A stretch of DNA of 38,939 nt. Source: Alphaproteobacteria bacterium (GTDB lineage: Bacteria > Pseudomonadota > Alphaproteobacteria > Rs-D84). Below the pieces are notes generated by a model, which ran no database searches, was not told the DNA's origin, and worked only from the letters and a program-made list of their open reading frames with translations. Location of the stretch: NCBI GenBank assembly GCA_017383325.1, contig JAFNYG010000061.1:1-38939 (forward strand), in the 5' to 3' direction. Made by a program: the position numbers and the translations under genes. Each line of letters begins with the position of its first letter. The stretch's first letter is position 1. This document shows positions 943-24,357 of this stretch, in pieces.

Positions 943-2712
943 TCAGTTTTTCTTGCGTACCTGAATATGTACTTCGCGCAACTGTTTTTCTGTCACAGTT
1001 GTTGGCGCCCCCATCATCAGGTCCTGTCCCCTTTGATTTGTTGGGAATATCACAACCTGGCGCAGATTTGGTTCATCCAACATAATCTGAACCAGTCGAT
1101 CCAAACCGAACGCGCACCCACCGTGCGGTGGCGCACCATATTGGAACGCGGTATACATTCCGCCAAACTTTTCTTTGACGATTTCTTCACTGTACCCTGT
1201 TATGTCAAAGCACTTTAACATAACCTCTGGGTTAAAGTTACGCAAACCACCACTGCAAATTTCTGCGCCATTTAACACCATATCAAATTGCGCAGCCTTG
1301 ATTTCCAATGGATTTTTAGTATTCAATTCTTGCAATGTCGCCATCGGGAACGAGAACGGATTATGCGTAAACGCGATACCTGTTGGCGATTCTTCATCTG
1401 CCTCAAAGAATGGGAATTCTTCTATCCAACAGAAACGGAATTCTTTTGGATCAATCAGCCCCAAATCATCGCCTAATTTATTACGCAGTTTTCCTGCGGC
1501 CTTGGCGGCTGCATTCTTTTCATCACACACAAAGAACAACGACGAATTATCACCTGCAATTTCGCGCAGTTTTGCAACCCGTCCTTCGTCTAATTTTTTA
1601 GCAACCGGCCCCTTGGCTTCGTCGGCAAAAACAATATATCCCAATCCACCCAGTCCTAATTCTTTGACCGCAAATTCACCCAATTTATCAAACCAAGAAC
1701 GTGGTTTGTCCGCTGAATTTGGTGCGGGTATTGCACGCACAACACTGCCATTTTCAACCGCATTTGCAAAGATTCCAAAATCAGATCCACGGAAAATTTC
1801 CGTCACATCATGAATAATGATTGGATTACGCAAATCTGGTTTATCTGATCCATATTTCAACATTGCTTCATCAAATGGAATATGTGGTATTTCTGGATGC
1901 ACCTTGGCCCCTGGGACAAATTCGCGAATCATTTCTGGCATCAGCGTATTACCCACCGCCTGAATATCTGGCAAATCCACAAACGACATTTCCAAATCCA
2001 ACTGATAGAATTCCAGTAATCTGTCTGCACGCAAATCTTCGTCACGGAAACATGGCGCAATCTGGAAATAGCGGTCAAATCCCGAAATCTGAATAAACTG
2101 TTTGAACTGTTGTGGCGCCTGTGGCAATGCATAGAACATACCATGATGATTGCGGCTTGGCACAATAAAGTCACGTGCACCTTCTGGGCTGGACGCGGTT
2201 AAAATAGGTGTCTGGAATTCCGAAAAACCCATATCCCACATTTTATCACGAATATATTTCATCACACGGTTACGGAACAAAATATTTTTATGCAAACTTT
2301 CACGTCTTAAATCGATATATCTATATTTCAAACGCAAATCTTCGGCGACCGAATCGTCATCCCCGAACACCTGGAACGGCAACACATCTGAATTAGTCAA
2401 CACTTCAAAAGAATCTGCCTGAATTTCAATACCACCGGTTGGAATTTTATCATTAACTGCATTTGCGTCACGCGCAACGACACTGCCCTGCACCTTGATA
2501 ACAGATTCCGGGCGCACTTTTTCCAGTGCTTCATTTCCCCCATCAAAAACAATCTGTGTAATTCCATAATTATCGCGCAGGTCAACAAACATCAACGCCC
2601 CATGGTCGCGTTTACGATGCACCCACCCCGACAAGACAACTTGTTCACCAACATTACTTGTATTTAATTCGCCACAAGTATGCGTTCTGTACTTTGATTT
2701 CAAAGATAACAT
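943..2712 (-). CDS. aspS: Aspartyl-tRNA synthetase, non-discriminating type
   Basis: A 589-residue class IIb synthetase that charges tRNA with aspartate in the cytoplasm. An N-terminal OB-fold anticodon domain (about 1-105) precedes the catalytic core. Motif 2 is FRDED (222-226) and motif 3 is AFGLDR (534-539); the insert between them is the length of the bacterial GAD domain. Residue H37 in RKRDHG is the His that marks non-discriminating AspRS (also able to charge tRNA-Asn for GatCAB), where E. coli has Leu. The ATG at 2712 is chosen because homology starts there and AGGGA lies about 8 bases upstream; the open frame runs a further 44 codons into the leader, which is untranslated RNA structure. 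Regulation is probably by the upstream T-box. A terminator follows the stop. Confidence 0.97.
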   Translation of the reverse strand: MLSLKSKYRTHTCGELNTSNVGEQVVLSGWVHRKRDHGALMFVDLRDNYGITQIVFDGGNEALEKVRPESVIKVQGSVVARDANAVNDKIPTGGIEIQADSFEVLTNSDVLPFQVFGDDDSVAEDLRLKYRYIDLRRESLHKNILFRNRVMKYIRDKMWDMGFSEFQTPILTASSPEGARDFIVPSRNHHGMFYALPQAPQQFKQFIQISGFDRYFQIAPCFRDEDLRADRLLEFYQLDLEMSFVDLPDIQAVGNTLMPEMIREFVPGAKVHPEIPHIPFDEAMLKYGSDKPDLRNPIIIHDVTEIFRGSDFGIFANAVENGSVVRAIPAPNSADKPRSWFDKLGEFAVKELGLGGLGYIVFADEAKGPVAKKLDEGRVAKLREIAGDNSSLFFVCDEKNAAAKAAGKLRNKLGDDLGLIDPKEFRFCWIEEFPFFEADEESPTGIAFTHNPFSFPMATLQELNTKNPLEIKAAQFDMVLNGAEICSGGLRNFNPEVMLKCFDITGYSEEIVKEKFGGMYTAFQYGAPPHGGCAFGLDRLVQIMLDEPNLRQVVIFPTNQRGQDLMMGAPTTVTEKQLREVHIQVRKKN

Positions 2713-2766
2713 CTTGGTCCCTTTTTCATTTTGGGCGCGAAATAAAACATTGGAATTTCGGCACCC
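2713..2766 (-). promoter_or_regulatory. aspS leader hairpin and ribosome-binding site
   Basis: Between the T-box and the start codon a hairpin pairs GGGTG-C-CGAAAT (minus strand, plus 2755-2766) with ATTTCGCGCCC (plus 2733-2743), 11 pairs with one bulged C. No T-run follows, so it is not a normal terminator. AAAAAGGGA then lies before the ATG. The 5' strand GCGGGTGCC (plus 2760-2768) can alternatively pair with GGCACC[G]CGC of the T-box motif, so the two folds compete. How this controls translation or termination is not clear. Confidence 0.45.
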
Positions 2767-2784: not shown

Positions 2785-2921
2785 TTGGGGGCGCAAGTCA
2801 TTTATGGCTGCGCGGTGCCACCCCAAACTTATAACTTTATTCACCCAGGAACGAACACTCTATGGTTGTCAATCACGTCATCATGTTCCAGCCTGCGACG
2901 TGCAGATTCTAAATCATAAAA
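2785..2921 (-). promoter_or_regulatory. T-box-like riboswitch upstream of aspS
   Basis: On the minus strand GGGTGGCACCGCG (plus 2811-2823) matches the T-box consensus GGGUGGNACCGCG at every fixed base. The antiterminator-type fold is complete: UUGGGG (2821-2826) pairs with CCCCAA (2785-2790), the bulge is UGGCACC (2814-2820), and GCGCA (2809-2813) pairs with UGCGC (2791-2795). The bulge UGGC would pair with GCCA, the 3' end of an uncharged tRNA with discriminator G, as tRNA-Asp has. Upstream a short stem (CACGTC 2897-2902 / GACGTG 2874-2879) and a weaker lower stem (2915-2921 / 2858-2864) flank a loop containing GAC (2868-2870) followed by A, a candidate Asp specifier. Stem I would be very short and is the least certain part. 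Confidence 0.75.
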
Positions 2922-2936
2922 AATAAAATTTCAACA

Positions 2937-5428: not shown

Positions 5429-7204
5429 TTATTCTGTTTTTTTCATCAAACTGAATACCGCCAACGGGAAATCCGGCGCATTGGCCAAATATGATCCAGA
5501 CACCAGCAAATCCGCACCTGCATTCCAACACAACTGGGCCGTCTTGTCATTAATCCCCCCATCAACAGATATCGTAAATTTCAACCCATACTTTTTTCTG
5601 GTTGCCGCCAAAATTGAAATCTTGTGCAAAGCCCCTGGATCAAAGACCTGGCCTGCGGCCCCCGGTTTTACAGACATAACCACAACTTCGTCCAAATCAC
5701 GCAAAATCTGCGTCAGCAATTTCACCGAAGAATCAGGATTTAACGCCACCCCAACACGTCGCCCAGACGCACGAATATTTCGCACAGCGGTTTTCAACCC
5801 TGACGTATTGGTCGACAATATCACGGTATCCGCGCCCGCTGCAATTGCATCTGCGGCCCAGACAACGGGGCTTTCTGTCATTAAATGCACATGCAAATGC
5901 GCATTTGTTCGTGCCCGAATATTTTTCAGTTCTTCGATACCACCTGTGATTCTATCCACATAAAACCCATCCATTATATCGACATGAATCATCGATATTC
6001 CTGCGGACCTGAACATGGTATATGTATCTGCGCGTTGCATATCAAAACATAGCGTACTGGGCAATATCGGCACAAATTTCTTAACTGGCCGGGACTTTCT
6101 GCGCAGTATTTTTCTGAACCACCCTGTACGCTGTGCCCAGCGCTCGTGCCGCGCGATATAGTTTTTACGCCTACCCTCTTCGCCTTGCCAAATATATTCC
6201 CCCAGCGCACGCACAGTTGCATCCATCGGCAGTAGCTCTGTAACAACGGCGAATGCATTTTCTATGAAATCACGCAATCCTTCTATCTCTGCGCCACCAC
6301 CTGTCAGAATAATTTTTGTTGGTTTATACTTTGTAAATGACGGCAAACACCTGTCTTTTAGTTGTCCAATAATATCAACCAATATCGGCAACACAATATC
6401 ATTTACATCGCCACGTGAAAAATCATATGCCCTGTCTGCCGGCGCAAATCGGTCCATTTCCTTTGGCACCAAAGACGCCACCGCGCGTTTAATTCTGTCT
6501 GCGGCATCAAAATCAATATTTAAATTCTGACAAATTGCATTTGTGATATCCGTTCCACCCAGCTTGATTTTTGTATGCCAAACCGGCCCACGATCTGTCC
6601 AAATTGACGCAGACGTAAATTCAGCCCCAAAATCTATAAACAGTGTTGTTTGTTTTTCTTGGCGGTACATTGCATTTTGCACCAACTGCGGGTCGAACAT
6701 TGCGTCCGCCTGCATATGTGCCCCGCGCAACTTTTCACAGATTGCATTCACGCCATCACACGAATAAAAGATAACCCCAAACGCAGATATTAATTGTTTA
6801 TCAACATGCCCCACAGGCGTATACATATTACGTGCCTGATTCGAATAATACCTCAGCGGGATAATATGCATTGGCACGAATCCATCTGGTGGGACAATCT
6901 GTGCAATTTGATTTCTAACATCCGTTGTTGTGATTTTGTGTTCCCCGCCCCACACTGTGCTTTTCGCCAGCATTTCATACTTTGCTTCGCCAAAATTTCC
7001 TGTTATATATGCAGAATCAAAATGTGTTGCGATTTGTTTTTCCAATTCATCCACAACAGACTTGATTGCAAACACAGTGTCAGTACTGTCGACCGAAAAA
7101 AATGCAGACTTGTCAATTCTGGCGCCGCGCACACGATATGCGATACCACGAACACCATACGAACCGATATCCAGGCACAAAAAAGAAGAATCGAACAAGT
7201 TCAT
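5429..7204 (-). CDS. ftsA-rpe: FtsA fused to ribulose-phosphate 3-epimerase
   Basis: One 591-residue frame joins two proteins. Residues 1-350 are FtsA-like: phosphate motif LDIGSYGVRG (11-20), second phosphate motif IDFGAEFTS (190-198), adenosine motif TGGGAEIEG (301-309). FtsA is the actin-like anchor of FtsZ. Residues 352-372 (WAQRTGWFRKILRRK core) form a basic amphipathic stretch like FtsA's membrane-targeting helix, but here it is internal. Residues 377-591 are a full-length Rpe: PSTL (381-384), HVDIMDG (407-413), VHLM (439-442), MSVKPGAAGQ (510-519), SVDGG (546-550). The metal and catalytic His and Asp positions are kept; MSVNPGFGGQ is altered to MSVKPGAAGQ. Start is 3 bases after the ftsQ stop. 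No ftsZ follows. Fusion is within one uninterrupted frame, with no sign of frameshift. Confidence 0.88.
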   Translation of the reverse strand: MNLFDSSFLCLDIGSYGVRGIAYRVRGARIDKSAFFSVDSTDTVFAIKSVVDELEKQIATHFDSAYITGNFGEAKYEMLAKSTVWGGEHKITTTDVRNQIAQIVPPDGFVPMHIIPLRYYSNQARNMYTPVGHVDKQLISAFGVIFYSCDGVNAICEKLRGAHMQADAMFDPQLVQNAMYRQEKQTTLFIDFGAEFTSASIWTDRGPVWHTKIKLGGTDITNAICQNLNIDFDAADRIKRAVASLVPKEMDRFAPADRAYDFSRGDVNDIVLPILVDIIGQLKDRCLPSFTKYKPTKIILTGGGAEIEGLRDFIENAFAVVTELLPMDATVRALGEYIWQGEEGRRKNYIARHERWAQRTGWFRKILRRKSRPVKKFVPILPSTLCFDMQRADTYTMFRSAGISMIHVDIMDGFYVDRITGGIEELKNIRARTNAHLHVHLMTESPVVWAADAIAAGADTVILSTNTSGLKTAVRNIRASGRRVGVALNPDSSVKLLTQILRDLDEVVVMSVKPGAAGQVFDPGALHKISILAATRKKYGLKFTISVDGGINDKTAQLCWNAGADLLVSGSYLANAPDFPLAVFSLMKKTE

Positions 7205-23169: not shown

Positions 23170-24357
23170 TTATTTTTTCTTTTCTACCAAGACCAACAAA
23201 CTAAACGCACCGATAAAGACCGTCACCGTCCACACCGCCGCCGTCGTTCCAAATATTGCAATCACCGCCGCCGCCAACATTGGCGCAATAACATTTGGTA
23301 AATTTGAACTGGTCCTAAAAACGCCATAATACTTTGTTTGTTGTGCCCGTCCTGTCCCGTCAAAGAACAACAAATCATGCACCGATTCCATCAATGCTCC
23401 CGATACCTGCCACGCAACAAATATCGCCAACAACGGCACACCTGTCACAAACATCGCCGCCGCGGACAGCGCCGCGAACGACCCAAATCCCAACACCATC
23501 CATATTGTTTTTCCAAATCTGCGCACCAAACGCCCCATCATCTCACTTAACACCAGGTACGGAATTATCCCCAACGTCAACACCCATCCCAAAGTATCTT
23601 TATCGAACCCGTTTTCAACGACTAAAATCGGCACATACAGCACACGCATTGCGCGCAACGAATAATATCCAAAATTCACCAGATATGCCCGCATCATTCC
23701 CGGCAAACGGAAAAATTCCATCGTATTTTTCCACAGCGCCTTGAATGTTTTTCGTGGGCTGACTGCCTTTATCTGTTTATCTTCTTGAACAACTTTAAAA
23801 TACTTAAACACCGACCACGCAATCAAATATATTGTTGCCGAACCAAAAAACGCCGCCCGATTACCAAACTGATTTGCAATAAACACCGCCACAGTCGGCG
23901 CAAACAACGCCCCAACATTCATCCACAAATGATACCTTGAATTCAGGCGCGCCATACCAATATTTTTTGAAAAATCCGACATAAACAGCGGGATTAACAT
24001 ACTGGATAACGTAATCGCGATACCCGTTGTGTAATCCAGTATAATAAATGTGCGTGGCAATATTGAAAATCCCATCATCGCATAGCACACCGCCATCATC
24101 AACAGCGCAAAATAAAACACCCGTGTCTTAGCAAACATACGCAGTATTTCATTTGCGAACAACCCAACCAAGAAACAAAATACGGAATAAATCGCAACAT
24201 AAACACCGACAATTGCGGACGACCTGAAAATCTCTAACAAAACCAGGGAATATACAGCATTATAAATACCGTCCGCAAAACCCGTAAACAACCCCAGATT
24301 TGCAAACGAAAACCCATTTACCCGTTTTCCAATTGAAATATATCTATCTCCCGCCAT
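23170..24357 (-). CDS. MFS-type membrane transporter
   Basis: About 395 residues with roughly 12 TM segments in two halves around a basic cytoplasmic loop (VVQEDKQIKAVSPRKTFKAL). The first half has the loop LRMFAKTR in the MFS A-motif area. Substrate is not predictable. An alternative TTG start lies 3 codons upstream, but the ATG at 24357 sits 8 bases after a TATAAT box, so the ATG is preferred and the mRNA may be leaderless. It lies between recA and the CarD gene with its own promoter. Confidence 0.8.
   Translation of the reverse strand: MAGDRYISIGKRVNGFSFANLGLFTGFADGIYNAVYSLVLLEIFRSSAIVGVYVAIYSVFCFLVGLFANEILRMFAKTRVFYFALLMMAVCYAMMGFSILPRTFIILDYTTGIAITLSSMLIPLFMSDFSKNIGMARLNSRYHLWMNVGALFAPTVAVFIANQFGNRAAFFGSATIYLIAWSVFKYFKVVQEDKQIKAVSPRKTFKALWKNTMEFFRLPGMMRAYLVNFGYYSLRAMRVLYVPILVVENGFDKDTLGWVLTLGIIPYLVLSEMMGRLVRRFGKTIWMVLGFGSFAALSAAAMFVTGVPLLAIFVAWQVSGALMESVHDLLFFDGTGRAQQTKYYGVFRTSSNLPNVIAPMLAAAVIAIFGTTAAVWTVTVFIGAFSLLVLVEKKK

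Follow-up and report, generated by a model that had tools for sequence, protein, structure and literature searches.

The window, by which we mean the whole stretch of 38,939 bases analysed here, carries a real and conserved variant of the T-box ahead of aspS, and by anatomy its membership among T-boxes is good. We consider it highly probable that the element is a reduced T-box riboswitch that senses uncharged tRNA-Asp, or tRNA-Asn in some relatives, and that it probably controls the translation of aspS. Computed support comes from its anatomy, from covariation, from a conserved specifier, from the fit of specifier and discriminator to the tRNA, and from the lack of an intrinsic terminator. By analogy with known T-boxes, we infer that the leader binds the tRNA and senses its charging state.

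The gene downstream of the element, which would be the regulated gene, lies on the minus strand (943..2712, ATG at 2712) and encodes an aspartate--tRNA ligase of 589 amino acids (NCBIfam, 747 bits against a cut-off of 443; Pfam tRNA-synt_2, OB-fold and GAD domains). The leader features described here are on the same strand. The T-box motif, GGGTGGCACCGCG, is present in a single copy at 2823-2811, against 0.01 copies expected per shuffled window and a copy in one of 100 shuffles; GGGTGGNACCGCG also occurs once in the 38,939 bases, again with 0.01 expected. The motif sits in an antiterminator-type fold, or antisequestrator (2785..2826), in which an outer helix pairs UUGGGG (2826-2821) with CCCCAA (2790-2785) and an inner helix pairs GCGCA (2813-2809) with UGCGC (2795-2791). 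Between the 5' strands lies the T-box bulge UGGCACC (2814..2820), whose UGGC would pair with the GCCA at which the tRNA-Asp and tRNA-Asn of relatives end. Towards aspS follow a hairpin, P3 (2733..2766), with the bulge complement GGUGCC on its 5' strand (2765-2760) and GCGCCC, a candidate anti-Shine-Dalgarno sequence, at the end of its 3' strand, and then a Shine-Dalgarno-like AGGGA (2718..2722). Upstream of the leader are a terminator-like hairpin at about 2939-2968 and a promoter-like site, TTGAAA-17-TAGAAT (2906..2934, minus strand), from which a transcript would start near 2899. This site is weakly indicated, since the consensus scan found one site against 2.1 expected in shuffles. Elsewhere in the window (5429-7204, minus strand), a single open frame of 591 residues joins an FtsA-like part (189-319) to a complete ribulose-phosphate 3-epimerase domain (381-573), possibly a fusion or a read-through of two genes.

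An Rfam scan of the window at gathering scores returned one match only, a tRNA (tRNA-Gln by ARAGORN), and RF00230 was not found at its gathering score of 93. In a permissive search, RF00230 aligned with the window at 24.1 bits (E 0.0017 for 401 bases). We read the RF00230 cut-off as a detection limit for forms with a long Stem I rather than as a defining part of the T-box. The single-sequence fold of the window leader is no better than shuffles (z 0.24); it is therefore conservation and covariation among the relatives that carry the case, and not folding energy.

Scanning genome contigs with the AspRS of the window gave 68 loci. They come from MAGs of uncultured Alphaproteobacteria or Proteobacteria, some of which bear the label Rickettsiales or just 'bacterium', and include one Candidatus Enterousia merdequi and Candidatus Deianiraea vastatrix; animal guts or faeces are named for many of the relatives. 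The window AspRS is 97% identical to that of L001. The motif and its matching 3' strand are present in 66 of the 67 aspS leaders with upstream DNA (L060 begins at the gene and is outside this count), the one exception being Deianiraea (L066), in whose leader the motif was not found. A tRNA-Thr (GGT) gene in the same orientation ends immediately ahead of the aspS leader in L001, L009, L012, L014, L019 and L023.

Covariation was assessed on a MAFFT alignment of 52 of the 66 rows available for Stem I (65 loci plus the window, L022 ending before Stem I), near-duplicates having been dropped. In the 20-pair structure four helices covary: 92.3% of cells are paired against 77.6% in shuffles, the covariation score is 0.487 against 0.197, and 14 of the 20 pairs have changed on both sides. 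None of 500 shuffles reached any of the five covariation measures, versions in which the structure was slid scored far lower, and RNAalifold, run on the same alignment, predicted 18 pairs, all among the 20 and in the same four helices. The shuffle and swap tests reported here leave the relatedness of the leaders in place. The initial annotation had described the T-box motif within a complete antiterminator fold, and both stand where it put them, conserved and covarying in relatives; its wider claim of a T-box-type element with a very short Stem I in an alphaproteobacterium also holds, the relatives being alphaproteobacterial. By its own terms, the claim would have fallen only if a covariance-model hit and conservation in the aspS leaders of related genomes had both been absent. 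The RF00230 cut-off was not reached, whereas motif and helices proved to be conserved and to covary.

Stem I (2846..2895) is only about 50 nt long, is closed by the specifier loop and has no elbow-binding arm. A basal helix, CAGG/CCUG (2895-2892 with 2849-2846), is followed by the helix GAACAU/GUGUUC (2888-2883 with 2858-2853), by a K-turn signature in which the bulged strand reads GAU, the three-base bulge, and then GA (2878..2882) opposite a GA at 2860-2859, by a 3-bp helix, GUG/CAU (2876-2874 with 2864-2862), and by a 7-nt loop, UUGACAA (2866..2872). Pairing of the basal helix scores 5.97 with its own partner and 4.80 with swapped partners, and none of 200 swaps reaches the former. The GA of the bulged strand is found in all 66 rows and the opposite GA in 61, counts that are partly built in, as the anchoring of rows favoured GA, and that describe a sequence signature of a K-turn. 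The commonest specifier loop, CUGACAA, occurs in 40 of 66 rows. Between Stem I and the antisequestrator runs a purine-rich linker (2827..2845) that holds a AAAAGUUAUAAA-like conserved stretch. Prediction from the 52-row alignment places no helix there, so that Stem II, the IIA/B element and Stem III are absent from the short form. A search for the purine string RRRxG...AA showed AAAAG...AA to be conserved in the linker without a Stem III helix, and this may be a remnant of the purine string around Stem III.

The triplet in the loop points to the probable partner. GAC is an Asp codon and AAC an Asn codon. In the window the candidate specifier is GAC at 2870-2868. Before aspS, anchoring on (G/A)AC yields 54 rows with GAC and 12 with AAC out of 66; when the triplet is located from pairing and GA only, the counts are 52 for GAC, 12 for AAC and two for other triplets (L056 and L057). 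Five consecutive loop bases, UGACA, are the complement of UGUCA in the anticodon loop of tRNA-Asp. At the other contact, the bulge base is C in all 66 leaders. Two pattern searches missed tRNA-Asp in most genomes; with RF00005 it was recovered in G049, a genome of one contig (1,001,484 bases), where a single tRNA-Asp (GTC) and a single tRNA-Asn (GTT) were found, both ending in GCCA. The tRNA-Asn genes of nine genomes, G049 included, end in GCCA and so carry G73, a discriminator that is not unique to them (13 of the 45 tRNAs of G049). The earlier suggestions that a GAC lies in a specifier loop and that the bulge C suits a tRNA with discriminator G are upheld by the conserved triplet and by G73 on both tRNAs of G049.

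The 7-nt loop that closes Stem I resembles an anticodon loop and stands ahead of a synthetase gene, which could also point to an operator bound by AspRS itself, acting by feedback through tRNA mimicry in place of tRNA sensing. Synthetase feedback by tRNA mimicry is known from E. coli thrS. We regard such an operator as very improbable here: what the loop presents is a codon, GAC or AAC, which complements the anticodons GUC and GUU instead of repeating them, the UGGCACC bulge and its flanking helices would be left without a role although they are the best conserved part of the leader, and the related fuller forms described below align with RF00230.

If the leader is instead a tRNA sensor, the two triplets would match an enzyme with two substrates. 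No recognised AsnRS exceeded the cut-off in any of 29 genomes (28 plus Deianiraea, mostly incomplete MAGs), and GatB was found in 27 of the same 29, which makes it likely that one AspRS charges both tRNA-Asp and tRNA-Asn. Matches to AsnRS below threshold exist in all 29 genomes; the three best, in G011, G017 and G018, fall on genes with 73% identity to the second AspRS described below. We also considered whether the presence of a second AspRS causes AAC before aspS. Of these three genomes, two have AAC before aspS and one has GAC, and in other AAC genomes no gene for a second AspRS is seen; the second enzyme therefore does not explain AAC. The choice between GAC and AAC links the specificity of the RNA to the indirect route to Asn-tRNA.

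In a T-box of this kind, Stem I, bent by the K-turn, would offer its terminal loop (C/U)UGACAA for pairing with the anticodon loop of tRNA-Asp (GAC-GUC plus neighbours), and the free GCCA end of the uncharged tRNA would pair with UGGC in the bulge, holding the antisequestrator in place; an aminoacyl group on the tRNA would block the latter pairing. Judging from complementarity, GGUGCC would stay in P3 while tRNA is held, leaving the Shine-Dalgarno free and allowing more AspRS to be made, and UGGCACC would pair with GGUGCC when no tRNA is held. That second pairing would overlap the Shine-Dalgarno in two leaders and release the anti-Shine-Dalgarno strand in most others.

Several comparisons bear on this expression platform. 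A complement of the bulge of at least 7 bases lies downstream in 58 of 66 leaders, and the mean longest complementary run is 7.18 against 5.40 in shuffles, the highest mean of a shuffled set being 5.64. It overlaps the Shine-Dalgarno in L057 and L065 and is missing in eight leaders (L020, L025, L027, L036, L037, L038, L040 and L059); in all of these except L059 the start codon is only about 60 bases past the T-box. Where there is room for P3, in 54 leaders, its strands pair better with their own partner than with swapped ones (-10.69 against -9.61, 0 of 300 swaps, with relatedness remaining in the swap), and so does the P3 3' strand with the Shine-Dalgarno (-7.31 against -6.63, 1 of 300, relatedness again remaining). 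In L022, L032, L053 and L056 a palindromic repeat (ATCCCACTTCGCC...GTGGGAC-like) separates P3 from the Shine-Dalgarno and gives the impression of a small mobile element inserted into the switch.

Folding energies, by themselves, do not show the switch, either in the window folds or in Shine-Dalgarno pairing over the 66 leaders. The ON fold of the window is 5.7 kcal/mol better than the OFF fold as drawn, and the mean pairing of the Shine-Dalgarno moves only from 0.60 without constraint to 0.57 when the ON fold is imposed, lower in 22 leaders and higher in 9. This result and the leaders that lack a bulge complement would suit a T-box that acts on transcription, through a Rho-dependent or unusual terminator and not by hiding the Shine-Dalgarno, and transcription is the target of most T-boxes described (PMC7583486). 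Counter to this, a terminator-like hairpin between the fold and the start codon was found in just one of 66 leaders (L009). The scan used was our own, written because the consensus scan missed the clear terminator at about 2939-2968, and it did find that hairpin, its positive control. The complementarity of the anti-Shine-Dalgarno strand and the Shine-Dalgarno follows the individual leader, and in two leaders the bulge complement reaches the Shine-Dalgarno itself. We thus think a transcriptional target unlikely. With no terminator in 65 of 66 leaders and the bulge complement in 58, translational control of aspS rather than termination is likely on the pattern of the sequences.

Most genomes sampled from one alphaproteobacterial order carry T-boxes, which go undetected at the Rfam cut-off. 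Model R1, which describes the short aspS element, derives from members of the order of G008, so that its own members score by construction; it matches 167 of 201 genomes of that order at E<=0.01, 161 of them at E<1e-13, and gives no match in 34. Among the six weaker matches, the motif is present in G042, G045, G197, G198 and G202 and absent from G037. Across the class, sampled evenly with 385 genomes, R1 has eight matches at E<=0.01, four of them in the same order; the remaining ones are other T-boxes (G290 and G401) or lack the motif (G445 and G450). Matches at L109, L131 and L132, where GGTGGNACC is missing, were taken as chance. The pattern GGTGGNACCRCG has 58 matches in 29 genomes, and in the one-contig G049 a single one, the aspS element. 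Twenty of the extra matches were fetched and rejected as T-boxes: each falls within an open frame, of 71 to 133 residues (133 being the whole stretch), and they keep 5 to 8 of the 9 antiterminator pairs, none all nine, on a count that has no reference score from true T-boxes. Three MAGs (G062, G112 and G183) each hold two strong aspS-type T-box copies on different contigs, either mixed bins or real duplicates.

Weak R1 matches led to leaders of a fuller form, with the same short Stem I followed by a Stem II-like GAAGAA/UUAGAA and an F-box-like CGGG...CCCGUUA. Such forms precede aspS in L104, L106, L107, L108, L130 and L263, and in L126 a second gene of the aspartate--tRNA(Asn) ligase class (451 bits, cut-off 353). 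In the order, 35 of 201 genomes match model R2, which was made from the 5' part of nine fuller forms; in the class sample the figure is 4 of 385. G291 and G401 are among the genomes matched. Of 30 R2 loci fetched from the order, 24 best match the second AspRS and three aspS, two have no gene assigned, and one (L259) escaped the search pattern. All 24 loci assigned to the tRNA(Asn)-type AspRS read AAC; in one of them, L257, a T-box motif was not detected by the pattern within 260 bases. End-to-end alignment with RF00230 was obtained for 9 of the 11 fuller loci searched (29.0 to 55.9 bits, best E 7.3e-10), but not for L150 and L111 at this threshold, and none of the 11 reaches 93 bits. A further variant is seen in G045 (L105, with no clear F-box) and G038 (L111), where a tRNA(Asn)-type AspRS has the T-box motif upstream and the usual F-box stretch is missing. 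Short and long T-boxes stand back to back on contig C64 of G021 (R1 at 2238-2335, plus strand; R2 at 2061-2160, minus strand) and on contig C26 of G183 (R1 at 23793-23889, minus strand; R2 at 23989-24082, plus strand), where they probably serve divergent genes for aspS and the second AspRS. Genomes with the long and the short form together are natural controls.

An AspRS tree built from 41 chosen rows puts most of the fuller forms in outlying positions, with L107 and L106 grouping with the short L057, L058 and L125. The short label needs three changes on this tree, whose root is unsure and where long branches meet; the fuller form may thus have been reduced to the short one more than once. The outlying position of the fuller forms, and the loss of Stem II, IIA/B and Stem III, which published work treats as essential alongside a short Stem I, might suggest that the element is a decaying relic of a fuller T-box with tRNA sensing lost. 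In most genomes of an order, the bulge, the specifier loop, the K-turn and the helices are all preserved, with compensatory changes, as would not be expected of a relic, and we find this explanation highly implausible.

A stronger version of the tRNA-sensing reading is, in our view, only just on the probable side. Here the element would be the smallest T-box so far, working by two contacts with a K-turn and a purine linker, without elbow grip, Stem II, IIA/B or Stem III, serving tRNA-Asp and tRNA-Asn for a dual AspRS, and derived, perhaps repeatedly, by stripping a fuller T-box. Its hairpin would kiss the anticodon loop (UGACA against UGUCA, up to five pairs) while the bulge takes GCCA. With GAC or AAC it would watch tRNA-Asp or tRNA-Asn, AspRS serving both where no AsnRS is recognised, and the ancestral fuller alphaproteobacterial T-box would still stand at the second AspRS gene in some of the same genomes. 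Beyond the initial annotation are the K-turn and anticodon-loop-like Stem I, the missing Stem II, IIA/B and Stem III, a control that is more probably translational than by termination, AAC in 12 of 66 rows, and the fuller T-boxes of the same order.

In the open-licence literature we found no report of such a T-box in alphaproteobacteria or at aspS. Among 125 proteobacterial genomes, the 2008 study of Wels counted two with a T-box, in each case at leuA (PMC2494555), and a 2013 survey gave the same narrow range of Firmicutes, Actinobacteria, few other groups and two deltaproteobacterial cases (PMC3766115). TBDB ran its translational model on Actinobacteria and on truncated-Stem-I matches of another model (PMC7778990). 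A 2023 study stresses Stem II and IIA/B (PMC10651847). The reduced form drops parts described as essential in published work, and it thus offers a direct test of the least RNA that can read a tRNA and its charging state.

The element can be compared with several known systems. The leuA T-boxes of Geobacter and Pelobacter are also proteobacterial, but they are described as typical T-boxes before a biosynthetic gene (PMC2494555). With RF00230, mainly transcriptional and from Firmicutes, the window element shares the T-box sequence and antiterminator helices, and the fuller forms share an F-box-like stretch; the long Stem I arms and the terminator are absent here and the cut-off of 93 is unreached. 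The glyQS-type T-boxes (PMC7583486) likewise follow a Stem I-linker-discriminator layout without Stem II. They have an elbow-binding Stem I, a Stem III and a GC-rich codon, whereas the window form has neither the elbow-binding arm nor Stem III. The translational, class II T-boxes of Actinobacteria, for instance at ileS in Nocardia farcinica and Mycobacterium tuberculosis (PMC7583486, PMC10651847), differ in that the window form lacks Stem II with its S-turn, the IIA/B pseudoknot and the Stem III helix, and has an alphaproteobacterial host, a GAC or AAC specifier and a GGUGCC bulge complement as its likely sequestrator. The two share a short or ultrashort Stem I, a K-turn and a specifier, an antisequestrator with a UGGN bulge, the absence of a terminator and a position ahead of a synthetase gene, and the fuller forms (L104, L126, L130, L151 and others) resemble class II further in having Stem II and an F-box-like IIA/B stretch.
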